Shown here: positions 14,544 through 18,347 of the stretch, piece by piece
Numbering within the stretch: position 1 is the first letter of the stretch
Layout of the letters: every line of letters starts with the position of its first letter
Assembly (NCBI RefSeq): GCF_900187225.1
Contig: NZ_LT906436.1
Coordinates: forward strand, 2,170,001 to 2,234,000
Reading direction: 5' to 3'
DNA: 64,000 nt
From: Listeria monocytogenes
GTDB lineage: Bacteria; Bacillota; Bacilli; Lactobacillales; Listeriaceae
The notes under the pieces: generated by a model
The model's database searches: none
What the model was told of the DNA's origin: nothing
What the model saw: the letters and a program-made list of their open reading frames with translations, nothing else
Position numbers and translations under genes: made by a program

Positions 14544-14563
14544 ATAAACAAGGAGTGATTGTT

Positions 14564-16306
14564 TTGAGTACGTACGATTTAGCACCTGAAGTGAAAATTC
14601 ATCAATTTGATGGTGCTTGGGCTGGTTATAAAGATATTGCCGGAGAGCTACTAACAGCCATCCAAAAGAAGAACAATGAACATATTATCGTTGCTATTGA
14701 ATGTTACCCTGGAACGCGAAATGAAGAAATTGTTGCCGAACTACTTCCATTACTACCTGTCGAAAAAGCGGTTTTCGCGGATGAGTGGGCATTAAATAAC
14801 GAAGAAGTAACAAATAAAGTCCAATCTCACTTAACAGATGACCGTGTGTTCGGCATTATGTCCCACTATGAAGTGAGCGACTTTTATCCAGCAGAAAAAC
14901 TTGCTGAAATTCAAGCAGAAATTTCGGCTAGTAAGGGGTTAGTTGTAATTTACGGGACTGGCGCAACAGTTATAGCACCAAATCCAGACATCCTTATTTA
15001 TGCCGATTTAGCGCGCTGGGAGATTCAGTGCCGTTACCGCAGAGAAAATAAACCTAACTGGAAAGCAGACAATGCGAATGAAGATGCGCTTCGTAAATTC
15101 AAACGAGGTTACTTTTTTGAATGGCGCATGGCTGACCGCCAAAAGAAAAAACTTTATCAACAAATAGATTTCTTACTTGATACAAATAAAAAAAATGAAC
15201 CAAAAATGGTACGCGGGGAAGATTACCGAAATGGTTTAAAACAAGTTTCGAAAGCTCCTTTTAGAGTAGTTCCTTACTTTGATGCAAGTGTATGGGGTGG
15301 CCAGTGGATGAAAAACAACTTCGGACTTGACCCTACTGCTGACAATTATGGTTGGGCATTTGATGGTGTTCCTGAAGAAAATAGTTTATACATGCGATTT
15401 GGGGATATTCGGATTGAAGTCCCGTCTACCAATGTAGTAAACCATTTCCCAAATGAATTACTTGGACCAAAAGTACATAGCCGTTTCGGTACGGAATTCC
15501 CGATTCGTTTTGACTATCTCGATACAGTGGGCGGTGGTAATTTAAGCCTTCAAGTCCATCCATTAGTAGAGTACGCGCAAGATAAGTTTGGCATTCATTA
15601 TACCCAAGATGAAAGTTACTATATTTTAGAAGCAGATAGTGACTCTACCGTTTACCTTGGAACAAAAGAAGGCACAACAAAAGAAGCAATTATGGCAGAT
15701 CTAGAAAAAGCCGCTGAAGGAAATTACCGTTTTCCCGATGAAAAATACATTAACGTCTTCCCAGTGAAAAAGCACGATCATATTTTAATTCCAGCTGGGA
15801 CGATTCATTGCGGTGGTCCAAGTACCGTCGTCCTAGAAATAAGTGCCACCCCTTATATTTTCACTTTTAAATTATGGGACTGGGAACGCACTGGACTCGA
15901 CGGCATGCCTCGCCCTGTTCATTTAGAGCACGGCAGAGAAAATTTACAACTTGACCGCGATACCAAATGGGTAAATGACAACTTAATAAACCAATTTGAA
16001 ACATTACACGAAGATAACGATTCAAAAGTAGAGCGCACCGGGCTACATGAATTAGAGTTTATCGAAACACAACGCCACTGGTTTAAAGAAACTGTTACCG
16101 TCCACACAAACGATAGCGTCAATATGCTCAATTTGGTAGAAGGAACAAGTGCTGTCGTTGAAAGTATTGACGACTCTTTCGCACCATTTGAAGTGCATTA
16201 CGGAGAAACATTTATCGTCCCTGCAATCGTCGGAACTTATCAAATTAGAAATACAAGCGCTAGTGAAAAAGTAGCTGTTATTCAAGCATTTGTACGTAAC
16301 TTATAG
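14564..16306 (+). CDS. manA: Class I mannose-6-phosphate isomerase with N-terminal extension
   Basis: This 580-aa protein interconverts mannose-6-P and fructose-6-P. The catalytic cupin half starts near residue 235 (FRVVPYFDASVWGGQWM) and has the zinc motifs LQVHP and IPAGTIHCGG. The first ~230 residues are an extra domain absent from the ~315-aa Bacillus ManA; it has a Rossmann/P-loop-kinase flavour without a clear Walker A, and its role is unknown. I start at TTG 14564, 8 bp after AAGGAG; the GTG at 14555 lies inside that ribosome site. Three palindromic operators precede it. Its terminator is split by an insertion sequence. Confidence 0.85.
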   Translation: MSTYDLAPEVKIHQFDGAWAGYKDIAGELLTAIQKKNNEHIIVAIECYPGTRNEEIVAELLPLLPVEKAVFADEWALNNEEVTNKVQSHLTDDRVFGIMSHYEVSDFYPAEKLAEIQAEISASKGLVVIYGTGATVIAPNPDILIYADLARWEIQCRYRRENKPNWKADNANEDALRKFKRGYFFEWRMADRQKKKLYQQIDFLLDTNKKNEPKMVRGEDYRNGLKQVSKAPFRVVPYFDASVWGGQWMKNNFGLDPTADNYGWAFDGVPEENSLYMRFGDIRIEVPSTNVVNHFPNELLGPKVHSRFGTEFPIRFDYLDTVGGGNLSLQVHPLVEYAQDKFGIHYTQDESYYILEADSDSTVYLGTKEGTTKEAIMADLEKAAEGNYRFPDEKYINVFPVKKHDHILIPAGTIHCGGPSTVVLEISATPYIFTFKLWDWERTGLDGMPRPVHLEHGRENLQLDRDTKWVNDNLINQFETLHEDNDSKVERTGLHELEFIETQRHWFKETVTVHTNDSVNMLNLVEGTSAVVESIDDSFAPFEVHYGETFIVPAIVGTYQIRNTSASEKVAVIQAFVRNL

Positions 16307-16324
16307 TAAAAGAAAGCCTATCAA
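16307..16324 (+). terminator. Left arm of a terminator hairpin split by an IS
   Basis: TAAAAGAAAGCCTATCAA is the exact reverse complement of 17598-17615. Removing the IS and one ATTG copy leaves an 18-bp stem with loop GATTG, a bidirectional terminator between manA and the convergent gntR. Confidence 0.85.
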
Positions 16325-16325
16325 G

Positions 16326-16329
16326 ATTG
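16326..16329. repeat. Target-site duplication, left copy (ATTG)
   Basis: ATTG here and at 17594-17597 flanks the element directly. IS3-family elements make 3-5 bp duplications. Confidence 0.7.
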
Positions 16330-16367
16330 GGCACTGCCACTAAAAAATGAGAATAAGATAAAAACAC
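16330..16367 (+). repeat. IS left inverted repeat
   Basis: GGCACTGCCACTAAAAAATG opens the repeat; the right end reads TGCACTGACATGGAAAAATG on the other strand. The outermost base differs (G against T), so the exact tip could be off by a base. Confidence 0.75.
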
Positions 16368-16408
16368 CTTCGTTGGATTCATGTAAAATGAAACTAACGG
16401 AGGTGTTT
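16362..16408 (+). promoter_or_regulatory. Hairpin over the orfA ribosome site
   Basis: AAACACCTTCGTT (16362-16374) pairs with AACGGAGGTGTTT (16396-16408), which contains the orfA ribosome site. Further pairs join TTCAT and ATGAA near the loop. Messages that read in from manA would fold and hide the site, a known way for insertion sequences to limit transposase. Confidence 0.65.
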
Positions 16409-16410
16409 CT

Positions 16411-16716
16411 ATGAGTACAAGAGTAATGTATCCAGCAGAAATAAAAGAAAAAGCTATCAAAATGAAATTAGCAGGTAAATCTACCAAAGAAATTATGAGA
16501 ACATTAAACATCAAAAATCCAACACAAGTGAAAACTTGGTGGCGCTGGTATCGAAATGAAGAAACCCACAGGTTTCACCAAGGAGTAGGTAAACAATATA
16601 AATACCAAAAAGGGGTGCCTGAATTACCAGAAATAGAACAATTAAAAATAGCTCTTCGGCAAAAAGAGCTAGAACTGGAAATTTTAAAAAAGTACAAGGC
16701 ATTGGAAAGGAAGTGA
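16411..16716 (+). CDS. IS3-family transposase OrfA
   Basis: This 101-aa protein has an N-terminal helix-turn-helix (KEKAIKMKLAGKSTKEIMRTLNIKNPTQVKTWWRWY) that binds the element ends, and a C-terminal leucine zipper (IEQLKIALRQKELELEILKKY). GGAGG precedes the ATG. It overlaps orfB by 4 bp. Confidence 0.9.
   Translation: MSTRVMYPAEIKEKAIKMKLAGKSTKEIMRTLNIKNPTQVKTWWRWYRNEETHRFHQGVGKQYKYQKGVPELPEIEQLKIALRQKELELEILKKYKALERK
16686..16692 (+). promoter_or_regulatory. Programmed -1 frameshift site (A AAA AAG)
   Basis: AAAAAAG is read as A AAA AAG in the orfA frame. A slip to -1 gives Lys-Lys-Val-Gln-Gly and runs straight into orfB with no stop, making the OrfAB fusion transposase. Confidence 0.8.
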
Positions 16717-17549
16717 ATCCAGCATATTTTGTTTTGTTAGTAGAAGAGCTAAAAACAAAGTATCTTGTCAAAGATATCTGTCAGATACTACAAGTACTTT
16801 TATCTACCTATTATCGCTGGAAAAAGAAAGATTTCGCACAGAGCTCATTGGAGAAAAAAATAGGGCAGTTATGTAAAGCATATCAGTTCACTTATGGTTA
16901 TCGAAAAATCGCCGCATTAATGAAACAAGAAGAACAAGTTGGCATCAATAAAGTACAGCGTATTATGCAAAAATATCAGTGGCAATGTCAGGTAAAAGTA
17001 AAAAAGAAAAATCGACCAGGCTCCGCCTACTATCAAACAGAAAACCACTTAAATCGAAACTTTCAAGCTAGTCAGCCGCTGGAAAAATTAACTACCGATA
17101 TCACCTACCTTTATTTCGGAGACTGCCGTTTATATTTATCAAGCATTATGGATTTGTATAATGGAGAAATCGTTGCCTACTCCATTGGCGAAAAACAAGA
17201 CACAGAATTAGTGCTAGATACATTAAATCAGTTGTCCCTTCCAGAAGGAAGTTTACTTCATAGCGATCAAGGTTCGGTGTACACATCTTATGAATATTAT
17301 CAGTGCTGTAAAAAGAAAAACGTTATCCGCAGTATGTCCCGAAAAGGGACACCCGCAGACAACGCTCCCATAGAATGTTTCCATTCCTCGCTAAAGTGCG
17401 AAACATTCTACCATAAAACAGCGTATAAATACGCTAAATCTATTGTAATCCAAATCGTAAAAGATTACATTAAATATTATAACGAAGAACGAATTCAACA
17501 AAAATTAGGCTACCAATCTCCTATTAATTTCAGGAAACAAGCAGCCTAA
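16713..17549 (+). CDS. IS3-family transposase OrfB (DDE integrase)
   Basis: This 278-aa protein has the rve integrase core with Asp129 (LTTDITYLY), Asp185 (LHSDQGSVY) and Glu221 (DNAPIECFHSSLK), giving the D-D-35-E spacing of the family. The HTH_21-like segment near residues 44-100 precedes it. It is mainly made as OrfAB by frameshifting; the GTG at 16713 could also start it alone. The frame is intact. Confidence 0.92.
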   Translation: MNPAYFVLLVEELKTKYLVKDICQILQVLLSTYYRWKKKDFAQSSLEKKIGQLCKAYQFTYGYRKIAALMKQEEQVGINKVQRIMQKYQWQCQVKVKKKNRPGSAYYQTENHLNRNFQASQPLEKLTTDITYLYFGDCRLYLSSIMDLYNGEIVAYSIGEKQDTELVLDTLNQLSLPEGSLLHSDQGSVYTSYEYYQCCKKKNVIRSMSRKGTPADNAPIECFHSSLKCETFYHKTAYKYAKSIVIQIVKDYIKYYNEERIQQKLGYQSPINFRKQAA

Positions 17550-17555
17550 TTTAAA

Positions 17556-17593
17556 GGGTTTTTATTTCATTCTCATTTTTCCATGTCAGTGCA
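17556..17593 (-). repeat. IS right inverted repeat
   Basis: On the minus strand this reads TGCACTGACATGGAAAAATG and then GAATGAAATAAAAACCC, the imperfect partner of 16330-16367. Confidence 0.75.
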
Positions 17594-17597
17594 ATTG

Positions 17598-17615
17598 TTG
17601 ATAGGCTTTCTTTTA
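17598..17615 (-). terminator. Right arm of the split terminator hairpin
   Basis: TTGATAGGCTTTCTTTTA pairs perfectly with 16307-16324. It overlaps the stop codon of gntR, which now lacks the other arm within folding reach. Confidence 0.8.
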
Positions 17616-18347
17616 TTCAAAATCAATATAATATCGATAATGCTTTCCTACATAAAAGCATTCACTGTATTCTCTAAAATCACTTTCTTTTTGTTTCGTC
17701 ATCCGTACTCTTTTTAAAATTGGTTCCTGCTTATCGATTGCTAAAGCTTCCTGAACTTCACGATTTGGTAGCATAGCTTCAATATATTCCTTTTCTTGAT
17801 TAACGACAATCCCAAATCCTTTCAAATATTCATAAAAAGAACCGTAATAATCTTCTGCTTGAAGGGAATACGCTTGTCGATAAGGAATCGCACTGATAAA
17901 AAGAGCAAACGCCAAGTCTTTCGTGCCTCGTAGCCGCTTAACTTGTAAAACCTTATCCCCAACTGCAAGCCCCAACTGCAACGCAATTTTTTTATCAGCA
18001 TTGATCACTTCTACTTCTGCATGTAGTGTAGCCGCTTTTTTACCAAGTTCTTTCATCTCATTCGTAAAACTGCGCACCAAAGTAAAATGCTCATCCTCTG
18101 CTTCTTCCCAGTCACGTACAAAAGTACCTTTCGCACGCTCTCTATAAAGTAGATTCTCACGAACGAGTTCATCAATTGCTTTCCGAACGGTAATTCTACT
18201 AACGTTGTATAACTCACATAAATCCAGCTCTGGTGGAATTTTATCTCCGGTTTTCCAAATTCCTGATTGGATTTTTTCCCGTAAGTCATCCGCTATTTGT
18301 GCATAAAGTGGCGACGCATCATTCATCTTATTTAATTTTCTAACCAT
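17613..18347 (-). CDS. GntR-family regulator, HutC/UTRA type
   Basis: This 244-aa protein has an N-terminal GntR winged helix (about 12-75: PLYAQIADDLREKIQSGIW, then NVSRITVRKAIDELV) and a UTRA ligand domain (about 95-240, ending RVRMTKQKESDFREYSECFY). HutC-type regulators usually sense a phosphosugar or related metabolite. An ATTGTNATNACAAW palindrome lies just upstream, and three more precede manA, so I infer autoregulation and control of manA. The effector is likely a hexose phosphate, which is inference. The IS has separated it from manA. Confidence 0.82.
   Translation of the reverse strand: MVRKLNKMNDASPLYAQIADDLREKIQSGIWKTGDKIPPELDLCELYNVSRITVRKAIDELVRENLLYRERAKGTFVRDWEEAEDEHFTLVRSFTNEMKELGKKAATLHAEVEVINADKKIALQLGLAVGDKVLQVKRLRGTKDLAFALFISAIPYRQAYSLQAEDYYGSFYEYLKGFGIVVNQEKEYIEAMLPNREVQEALAIDKQEPILKRVRMTKQKESDFREYSECFYVGKHYRYYIDFE

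Follow-up and report, generated by a model that had tools for sequence, protein, structure and literature searches.

An insertion sequence (IS) lies between the two arms of a terminator-like hairpin in the genome of Listeria monocytogenes, and this locus raises the question whether such a position is accidental or reflects a target choice of the element. The window, i.e. the whole stretch of DNA analysed here, comprises 64,000 nucleotides (contig NZ_LT906436.1, positions 2,170,001 to 2,234,000).

An IS150-like element in the loop of a hairpin

The features which define the locus are the following:

14555..16306, + strand: manA-like gene, 583 aa, upstream convergent neighbour (weak TIGR00218 match; PDB 1qwr)
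16307..16324, unstranded: left hairpin arm, TAAAAGAAAGCCTATCAA, 18/18 complementary to 17598-17615
16326..16329, unstranded: left copy of the ATTG target duplication, read from the sequence
16330..17593, + strand: IS3-family, IS150-like insertion sequence, 1264 bp, ends GGCACTG...CAGTGCA
16411..16716, + strand: orfA, helix-turn-helix protein, 101 aa (PF13518, E 4.5e-7)
16686..16692, + strand: AAAAAAG, putative slippery site for a -1 frameshift from orfA into orfB (sequence motif)
16713..17549, + strand: orfB, DDE transposase (rve), 278 aa (PF00665, E 5e-17; NF033516, 263.7 bits)
17594..17597, unstranded: right copy of the ATTG target duplication, read from the sequence
17598..17615, unstranded: right hairpin arm, TTGATAGGCTTTCTTTTA, overlapping the gntR stop codon (17613-17615)
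17613..18347, - strand: gntR/UTRA-family regulator gene, 244 aa (open reading frame and domain search)

The left arm begins directly after the stop codon of the manA-like gene (16304-16306), and removal of the IS reconstructs an empty site with an 18/18-bp stem and the 5-nt loop GATTG. The first-pass annotation had described an IS placed exactly in a hairpin loop, with perfectly complementary 18-bp arms directly outside the IS and its ATTG duplication and a 5-nt loop after its removal; reading of the arms, the ATTG copies and the element limits proved this description correct to the base. Arms were scored as the best ungapped complementary run between the flanks (+1 per match, -2 per mismatch) at most 18 nt from the element ends. 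With the same scoring, 0.042% of 12,000 random window sites reached a score of at least 17 and 0.55% a score of at least 10. These data support the view that the window element occupies a hairpin resembling an intrinsic terminator.

The two neighbouring genes are convergent, as annotated before, and one of them encodes a GntR/UTRA regulator. The identity of the other as manA is weak: its product matched TIGR00218 with 33.2 bits, under the cut-off of 116.2, and PDB entry 1qwr with an E value of 4.8e-9, and no Pfam family was found at 0.001. As the family match is weak, manA-like is the safer name.

The NF033516 match of orfB exceeds the cut-off of 160 bits and identifies an IS3-type DDE transposase. 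The overlap of orfA and orfB together with the putative slippery site AAAAAAG agrees, at the level of sequence, with the layout of the IS3 family; an A6G frameshift motif is described for IS3 subgroups in the accessible part of PMC6211511. The five Listeria copies with both ends share the ends GGCACTG...CAGTG, while the outer TG varies among them (IS3 elements are expected to end with 5'-TG...CA-3'). In a quick tree the window element fell within a clade of 33 rows with 95% support; E. coli IS150 was placed outside this clade, at an unresolved base and apart from E. coli IS3, and the element is therefore termed IS150-like. E. coli IS150, IS2 and IS3 were included with one copy each, for the tree and for inspection by eye.

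Empty sites and other Listeria copies

Comparison with IS-free Listeria genomes, proposed in the first-pass annotation, revealed that the hairpin of the window site is intact in all five close relatives (loci L142, L143, L144, L145 and L146), which were defined by manA-like proteins of 94-97% identity. Their empty-site hairpins have 15-18 predicted pairs and loops of 5-6 nt. Eight more distant orthologues mostly carry another hairpin at the manA-like/gntR site; at the distant locus L148 no strong hairpin was found there, and the readings of L150 and L152 are less sure, the matched genes being partial.

The genome contains one other full copy of the element (C1:166171-167434). It splits a hairpin of 17/17 bp with the arms AAAAAACACCTCGTAAA and TTTACGAGGTGTTTTTT and is flanked by two convergent genes whose products resemble LPXTG surface proteins, the LPXTG motif having been read by eye. 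This second site was matched in six other genomes of 25 searched, and the hairpin was intact in five of the six, one being masked. The two stems of this genome are unrelated in sequence; for each of them, relatives have a hairpin at the corresponding position.

A Listeria set assembled by hand from ten sources (the window, L002 and eight fragment loci) contained both element ends in five cases, with arm scores of 18 (window), 17 (L002), 15 (L007, copy length 1009 bp), 10 (L021, 954 bp) and 5 (L026, 954 bp). No clear stem was seen at L026, whose edges are A- and T-rich, and an exact target duplication was seen by eye in two of the five copies. Two internally deleted copies of ~0.5 kb were observed in another Listeria (L027; genome G015, C1:1419370-1419877 and C1:2297835-2298341). 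They keep both element ends (query 2-379 and ~1125-1266) and resemble a non-autonomous derivative.

Target choice across IS150-like elements

Thirty sets of IS150-like elements were scored, and 78 of 156 copies reached an arm score of at least 10. This value was found in 0.37% of 9,300 random sites from the neighbourhoods of the copies and in 6.0% of 732 cross-paired flanks from the same sets, the latter figure being inflated because the score favours pairing of A-runs with T-runs. The 17 sets closest to the window element gave 38 of 80. Half of the 156 copies fall short of the strict threshold of 10, and several of those resemble terminators with imperfect stems. Exact duplications of at least 3 bp adjoin 110 of the 156 copies, with ends as set. 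An earlier survey which included single copies yielded 59 of 145 copies at a score of at least 11 versus 1.0% of 6,000 cross pairs; here, 191 copies were kept, 25 of them had no end anchor, and 21 more were dropped for weak terminal repeats, cut flanks or duplication, leaving 145.

Element ends were set from terminal-repeat motifs in the sets G283, G628, Meso, Erys2, G631, G746, cG539a, cG686 and cG593. The seven G746 copies derive from six loci, so that one may be the same copy read twice, and some given copies were left unused (four of five used in G044; seven of eight and then five in Xanth).

Target choice is thus real and wide in IS150-like elements. The suggestion in the first-pass annotation that this element may choose terminator hairpins holds for the window element and its relatives. 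As for the flanks of other copies, their sites are non-random, although two sets, G631 (0/6) and Erys2 (0/3), are without hairpin targets. Xanth scored 1/5, its palindromes lying further out, and the single IS150 copy of E. coli K-12 showed no obvious flanking hairpin by eye.

Two observations concern the sites of particular sets. The G631 copies (L217-L221) lie outside hairpins and are in most cases surrounded by a dispersed repeat in which GCAAC(A/G)C occurs. In Xanthomonas (L089-L095 and L099), near-identical GC-rich palindromic flanks occur at different loci and resemble a REP-type repeat target.

The anatomy of the targeted hairpins was determined for 90 copies with scores of at least 9. 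A tract of A4 or T4 was present at the stem edge in 83 of them, a count which the scoring of A-run/T-run pairs inflates (background for one 14-mer, 17.6%). The median stem has 13 bp with 5 GC pairs, and the median gap between arm and element is 5 nt on either side. Tracts were of T only in 11 cases, of A only in 13 and of both in 59, which indicates no orientation bias. Stem and loop sequences vary between sites of one genome, and inspection by eye revealed no common loop motif. Kin in Xanthomonas and Pseudomonas adjoin GC-rich palindromes without a T-tract.

Other IS types as controls

None of ten IS256 copies and none of nine copies of the IS3-subgroup set cG322 reached a score of 10. The comparison of these 0/19 with the 78/156 of the IS150-like sets gave a Fisher p of 7.4e-6, which is only a guide as the copies are related. 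Other IS3-family sets from the same genomes were moved from the controls to the test group, most of them lying in terminators as well, so cG322 is the sole IS3-family control retained. It groups with E. coli IS3 (98% support), although the tree tool warns that this may be a false join of two long branches. Within genome G707, 9/9 IS150-like copies scored versus 0/5 of IS256.

Elements with a DDE_Tnp_1 transposase were initially counted as controls too. Two of 26 copies reached 10, both in set G628, and the first tally including them was 2/45 with p 2.7e-9. We rejected these sets as clean negatives because in several of them the left flank is A-rich and the right flank T-rich, as after replacement of a terminator stem, and IS256 together with cG322 serves as the main control. 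With corrected ends, 0/9 copies of the sets D1_G044 and D1_G425 reach 10, and all four D1_G044 copies have such flanks. Same-genome counts of IS150-like versus DDE_Tnp_1 copies were 4/4 versus 0/4 (G044), 2/3 versus 0/5 (G425), 4/15 versus 0/4 (G497), 2/7 versus 0/5 (G451) and 1/4 versus 2/3 (G628).

The DDE_Tnp_1 elements merit description in their own right. At L377, L383, L389 and L400 (G044) and at L387 and L398 (G451) they directly adjoin an A-rich flank on the left and a T-rich flank on the right, as if a terminator stem-loop had been replaced in the manner of IS1272. At L384 and L396 (G628), a 1662-bp DDE_Tnp_1 element with an open frame of 531 aa, which we take to be IS1182-like, has a full copy of one hairpin on both sides; in these two of three copies the duplicated target appears to equal the whole stem-loop.

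Inward-facing hairpins at both element ends

The element itself carries a predicted hairpin near each end:

16363..16407, + strand: left inward-facing hairpin; its 3' arm contains the orfA ribosome-binding site GGAGGTG (16399-16405)
~17502-17552, - strand: right inward-facing hairpin, formed in RNA that reads in from the gntR side; antisense fold z -6.0

The A-tract 17500-17504 supplies the U-tract of the right hairpin, which partly overlaps the orfB coding sequence. The U-tract of the left hairpin is weak in the window element (TTTCTA). Inward hairpins of -10 kcal/mol or lower were predicted at the left end of 36 and the right end of 37 of the 37 elements of the window clade, the window element included; 14% (left) and 43% (right) of shuffled sequences, 76 each, reached this value. 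Mean terminator scores were -22.0 (left-inward) and -23.5 kcal/mol (right-inward) versus -5.2 and -8.7 for the shuffles, and the outward strands gave means of -18.1 at the left end and -11.4 at the right end. On the opposite strand, too, the left hairpin has a good score, and its stem edges are A- and T-rich.

The region before orfA folds below its shuffles (mean z -5.1; z < -2 in 36/37). The ribosome-binding site, recognised in 34 of the 37 elements, is paired in all 34, and neighbouring pairs show compensating variation. Per-sequence folds were used for these results; a consensus fold of the left hairpin (28 sequences; 5 pairs, weak) was set aside as MAFFT had slid the 5' arm, and folding of the left flank alone was uninformative. 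The right hairpin was aligned from 23 of 26 sequences (L158, L046 and L050 omitted) and showed 19 pairs on the antisense strand, with 92.0% of the cells paired. Fourteen of these pairs change on both sides, and 65 cells with two-sided change were counted versus 22.3 in shuffled and 7-11 in slid alignments, a value as high being reached by 0 of 500 shuffles. Many of the pairs are G-U on the antisense strand and mismatches on the other strand; the molecule under selection thus appears to be RNA that enters from the right.

The representatives of the DDE_Tnp_1 sets have strong inward hairpins too. Weak values at both ends were obtained for the cG322 representative, E. coli IS3, E. coli IS2 and the G707 IS256 representative; the IS256 representative of G322 reached -13.9 at the left end only, and E. 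coli IS150 gave 0 (left) and -23.8 (right). The Meso and Xanth elements lie in or by palindromes and have right-end hairpins near shuffled values, and G631, a single case, has neither hairpin targets nor a left hairpin. The occurrence of such hairpins in DDE_Tnp_1 and other elements suggests that shielding hairpins are a broader device of insertion sequences, which is here joined with homing to terminators.

According to the first-pass annotation, the insertion destroys the terminator, manA transcripts should enter the IS and gntR transcripts should run antisense into orfB. The host hairpin is indeed split; simple run-through is not well supported, as an inward hairpin lies near each end. Read-in from either neighbour is predicted to be stopped within ~100 nt or left untranslated.

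Proposed mechanism and alternative explanations

We consider it very likely that this IS150-like element of the IS3 family prefers hairpin-forming DNA, mostly intrinsic terminators, inserts in or near the loop and brings its own inward hairpin at each end. Insertion would usually duplicate 3-4 bp and leave one arm on each side. The complex of transposase and element ends most likely reads the palindrome as a DNA structure, either bent or extruded as a cruciform; we infer this from the lack of orientation bias, the differing stem sequences and the kin on GC-rich palindromes.

A similar distribution would arise if insertion occurred anywhere and copies persisted only in dispensable, terminator-rich spacers between genes. 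Both copies of this genome are intergenic and outside long open reading frames, and cost to the host would bias the copies observed, but IS256 (0/10) and the IS3-subgroup set (0/9) lie outside hairpins in genomes with hairpin-borne IS150-like copies. Moreover, the scoring copies lie in or beside the loop and not anywhere in the spacer. Survivorship was rejected as the main cause on the evidence of the other IS types, and we hold it to be highly improbable. It is also hard to believe that the IS recognises a short sequence which is frequent in terminators by chance: A-rich and T-rich edges are common to many sites, but stems and loops differ within one genome and share no loop motif visible by eye.

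The terminator-like tracts in 83 of the 90 stems would also agree with recognition of a terminating transcription complex or a nascent RNA hairpin instead of a DNA palindrome. This reading we regard as unlikely. The one-sided tracts show no orientation bias (11 versus 13), most stems being two-sided and uninformative in this respect, the Xanthomonas and Pseudomonas kin lie by GC-rich palindromes without a T-tract, and IS3-family elements which target REP sequences are reported in the accessible part of PMC1525189.

If hairpin-forming DNA is recognised, landing in a terminator would place the element behind genes. In RNA that reads in from outside, the left hairpin would pair with the orfA ribosome-binding site; in most relatives a T-tract follows this hairpin. 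The right hairpin would arise in antisense RNA from the opposite direction. The broken host terminator would thereby be exchanged for two substitute stops, and the transposase gene would be shielded from outside transcription. We are evenly balanced on the wider proposal that an IS150-like lineage present in Bacillota, Pseudomonadota and probably Bacteroidota homes by the shape of DNA hairpins and swaps one terminator for two inward ones, so that insertion would be almost silent for both neighbours while the transposase is shielded.

Relation to known elements and significance

Targeting of hairpins by insertion sequences is already known. IS1272 and TnSha1 insert into inverted repeats, several of them terminators confirmed by RNA-seq, in both orientations and without specificity for primary sequence, and the stem-loop is deleted wholly or partly without target duplication (accessible parts of PMC5678879 and PMC4923244). 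The window element differs from this type, as it keeps 18/18 arms and duplicates ATTG instead of replacing the hairpin. The IS1272 transposase belongs to the IS1182 family, unlike the IS3-type enzyme of the window element.

Within the IS3 family, IS1397, ISKpn1 and ISPsy8 target REP palindromes, ISPsy8 inserting at the symmetry axis of the hairpin with a 3-bp duplication, as stated in the available sections of PMC1525189. The transposase family is common to both, but their targets are repeated REPs, whereas the window element occupies individual terminators; this distinction from a repeated palindrome is based on the two unrelated stems of this genome. In IS200, one hairpin terminates incoming transcripts and another hides the ribosome site (PMC3196728, as far as accessible). 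Its transposase family is unrelated, and in the window element both tasks may fall to the left hairpin alone, a second hairpin being directed inward from the right end. Group IIC introns are further mobile elements associated with terminator hairpins; they are ribozyme retroelements and not DDE transposons. In the open-access literature, as far as its texts were available, we found no account of an IS3-family element that targets terminators. What appears new with respect to this literature is insertion into the loop, with target duplication, of individual terminators by a broad IS150-like lineage.

These results extend one unusual insertion to a rule, testable across a widespread IS group, by which landing sites would be predictable from terminator maps. 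They also serve as a warning that terminators may be split in IS-rich genomes, and the element would offer a natural hairpin-directed transposase for study. Because it supplies stops itself, the element may land at low cost, which suggests spread with little harm to the host and would help to explain the persistence of insertion sequences in compact genomes.
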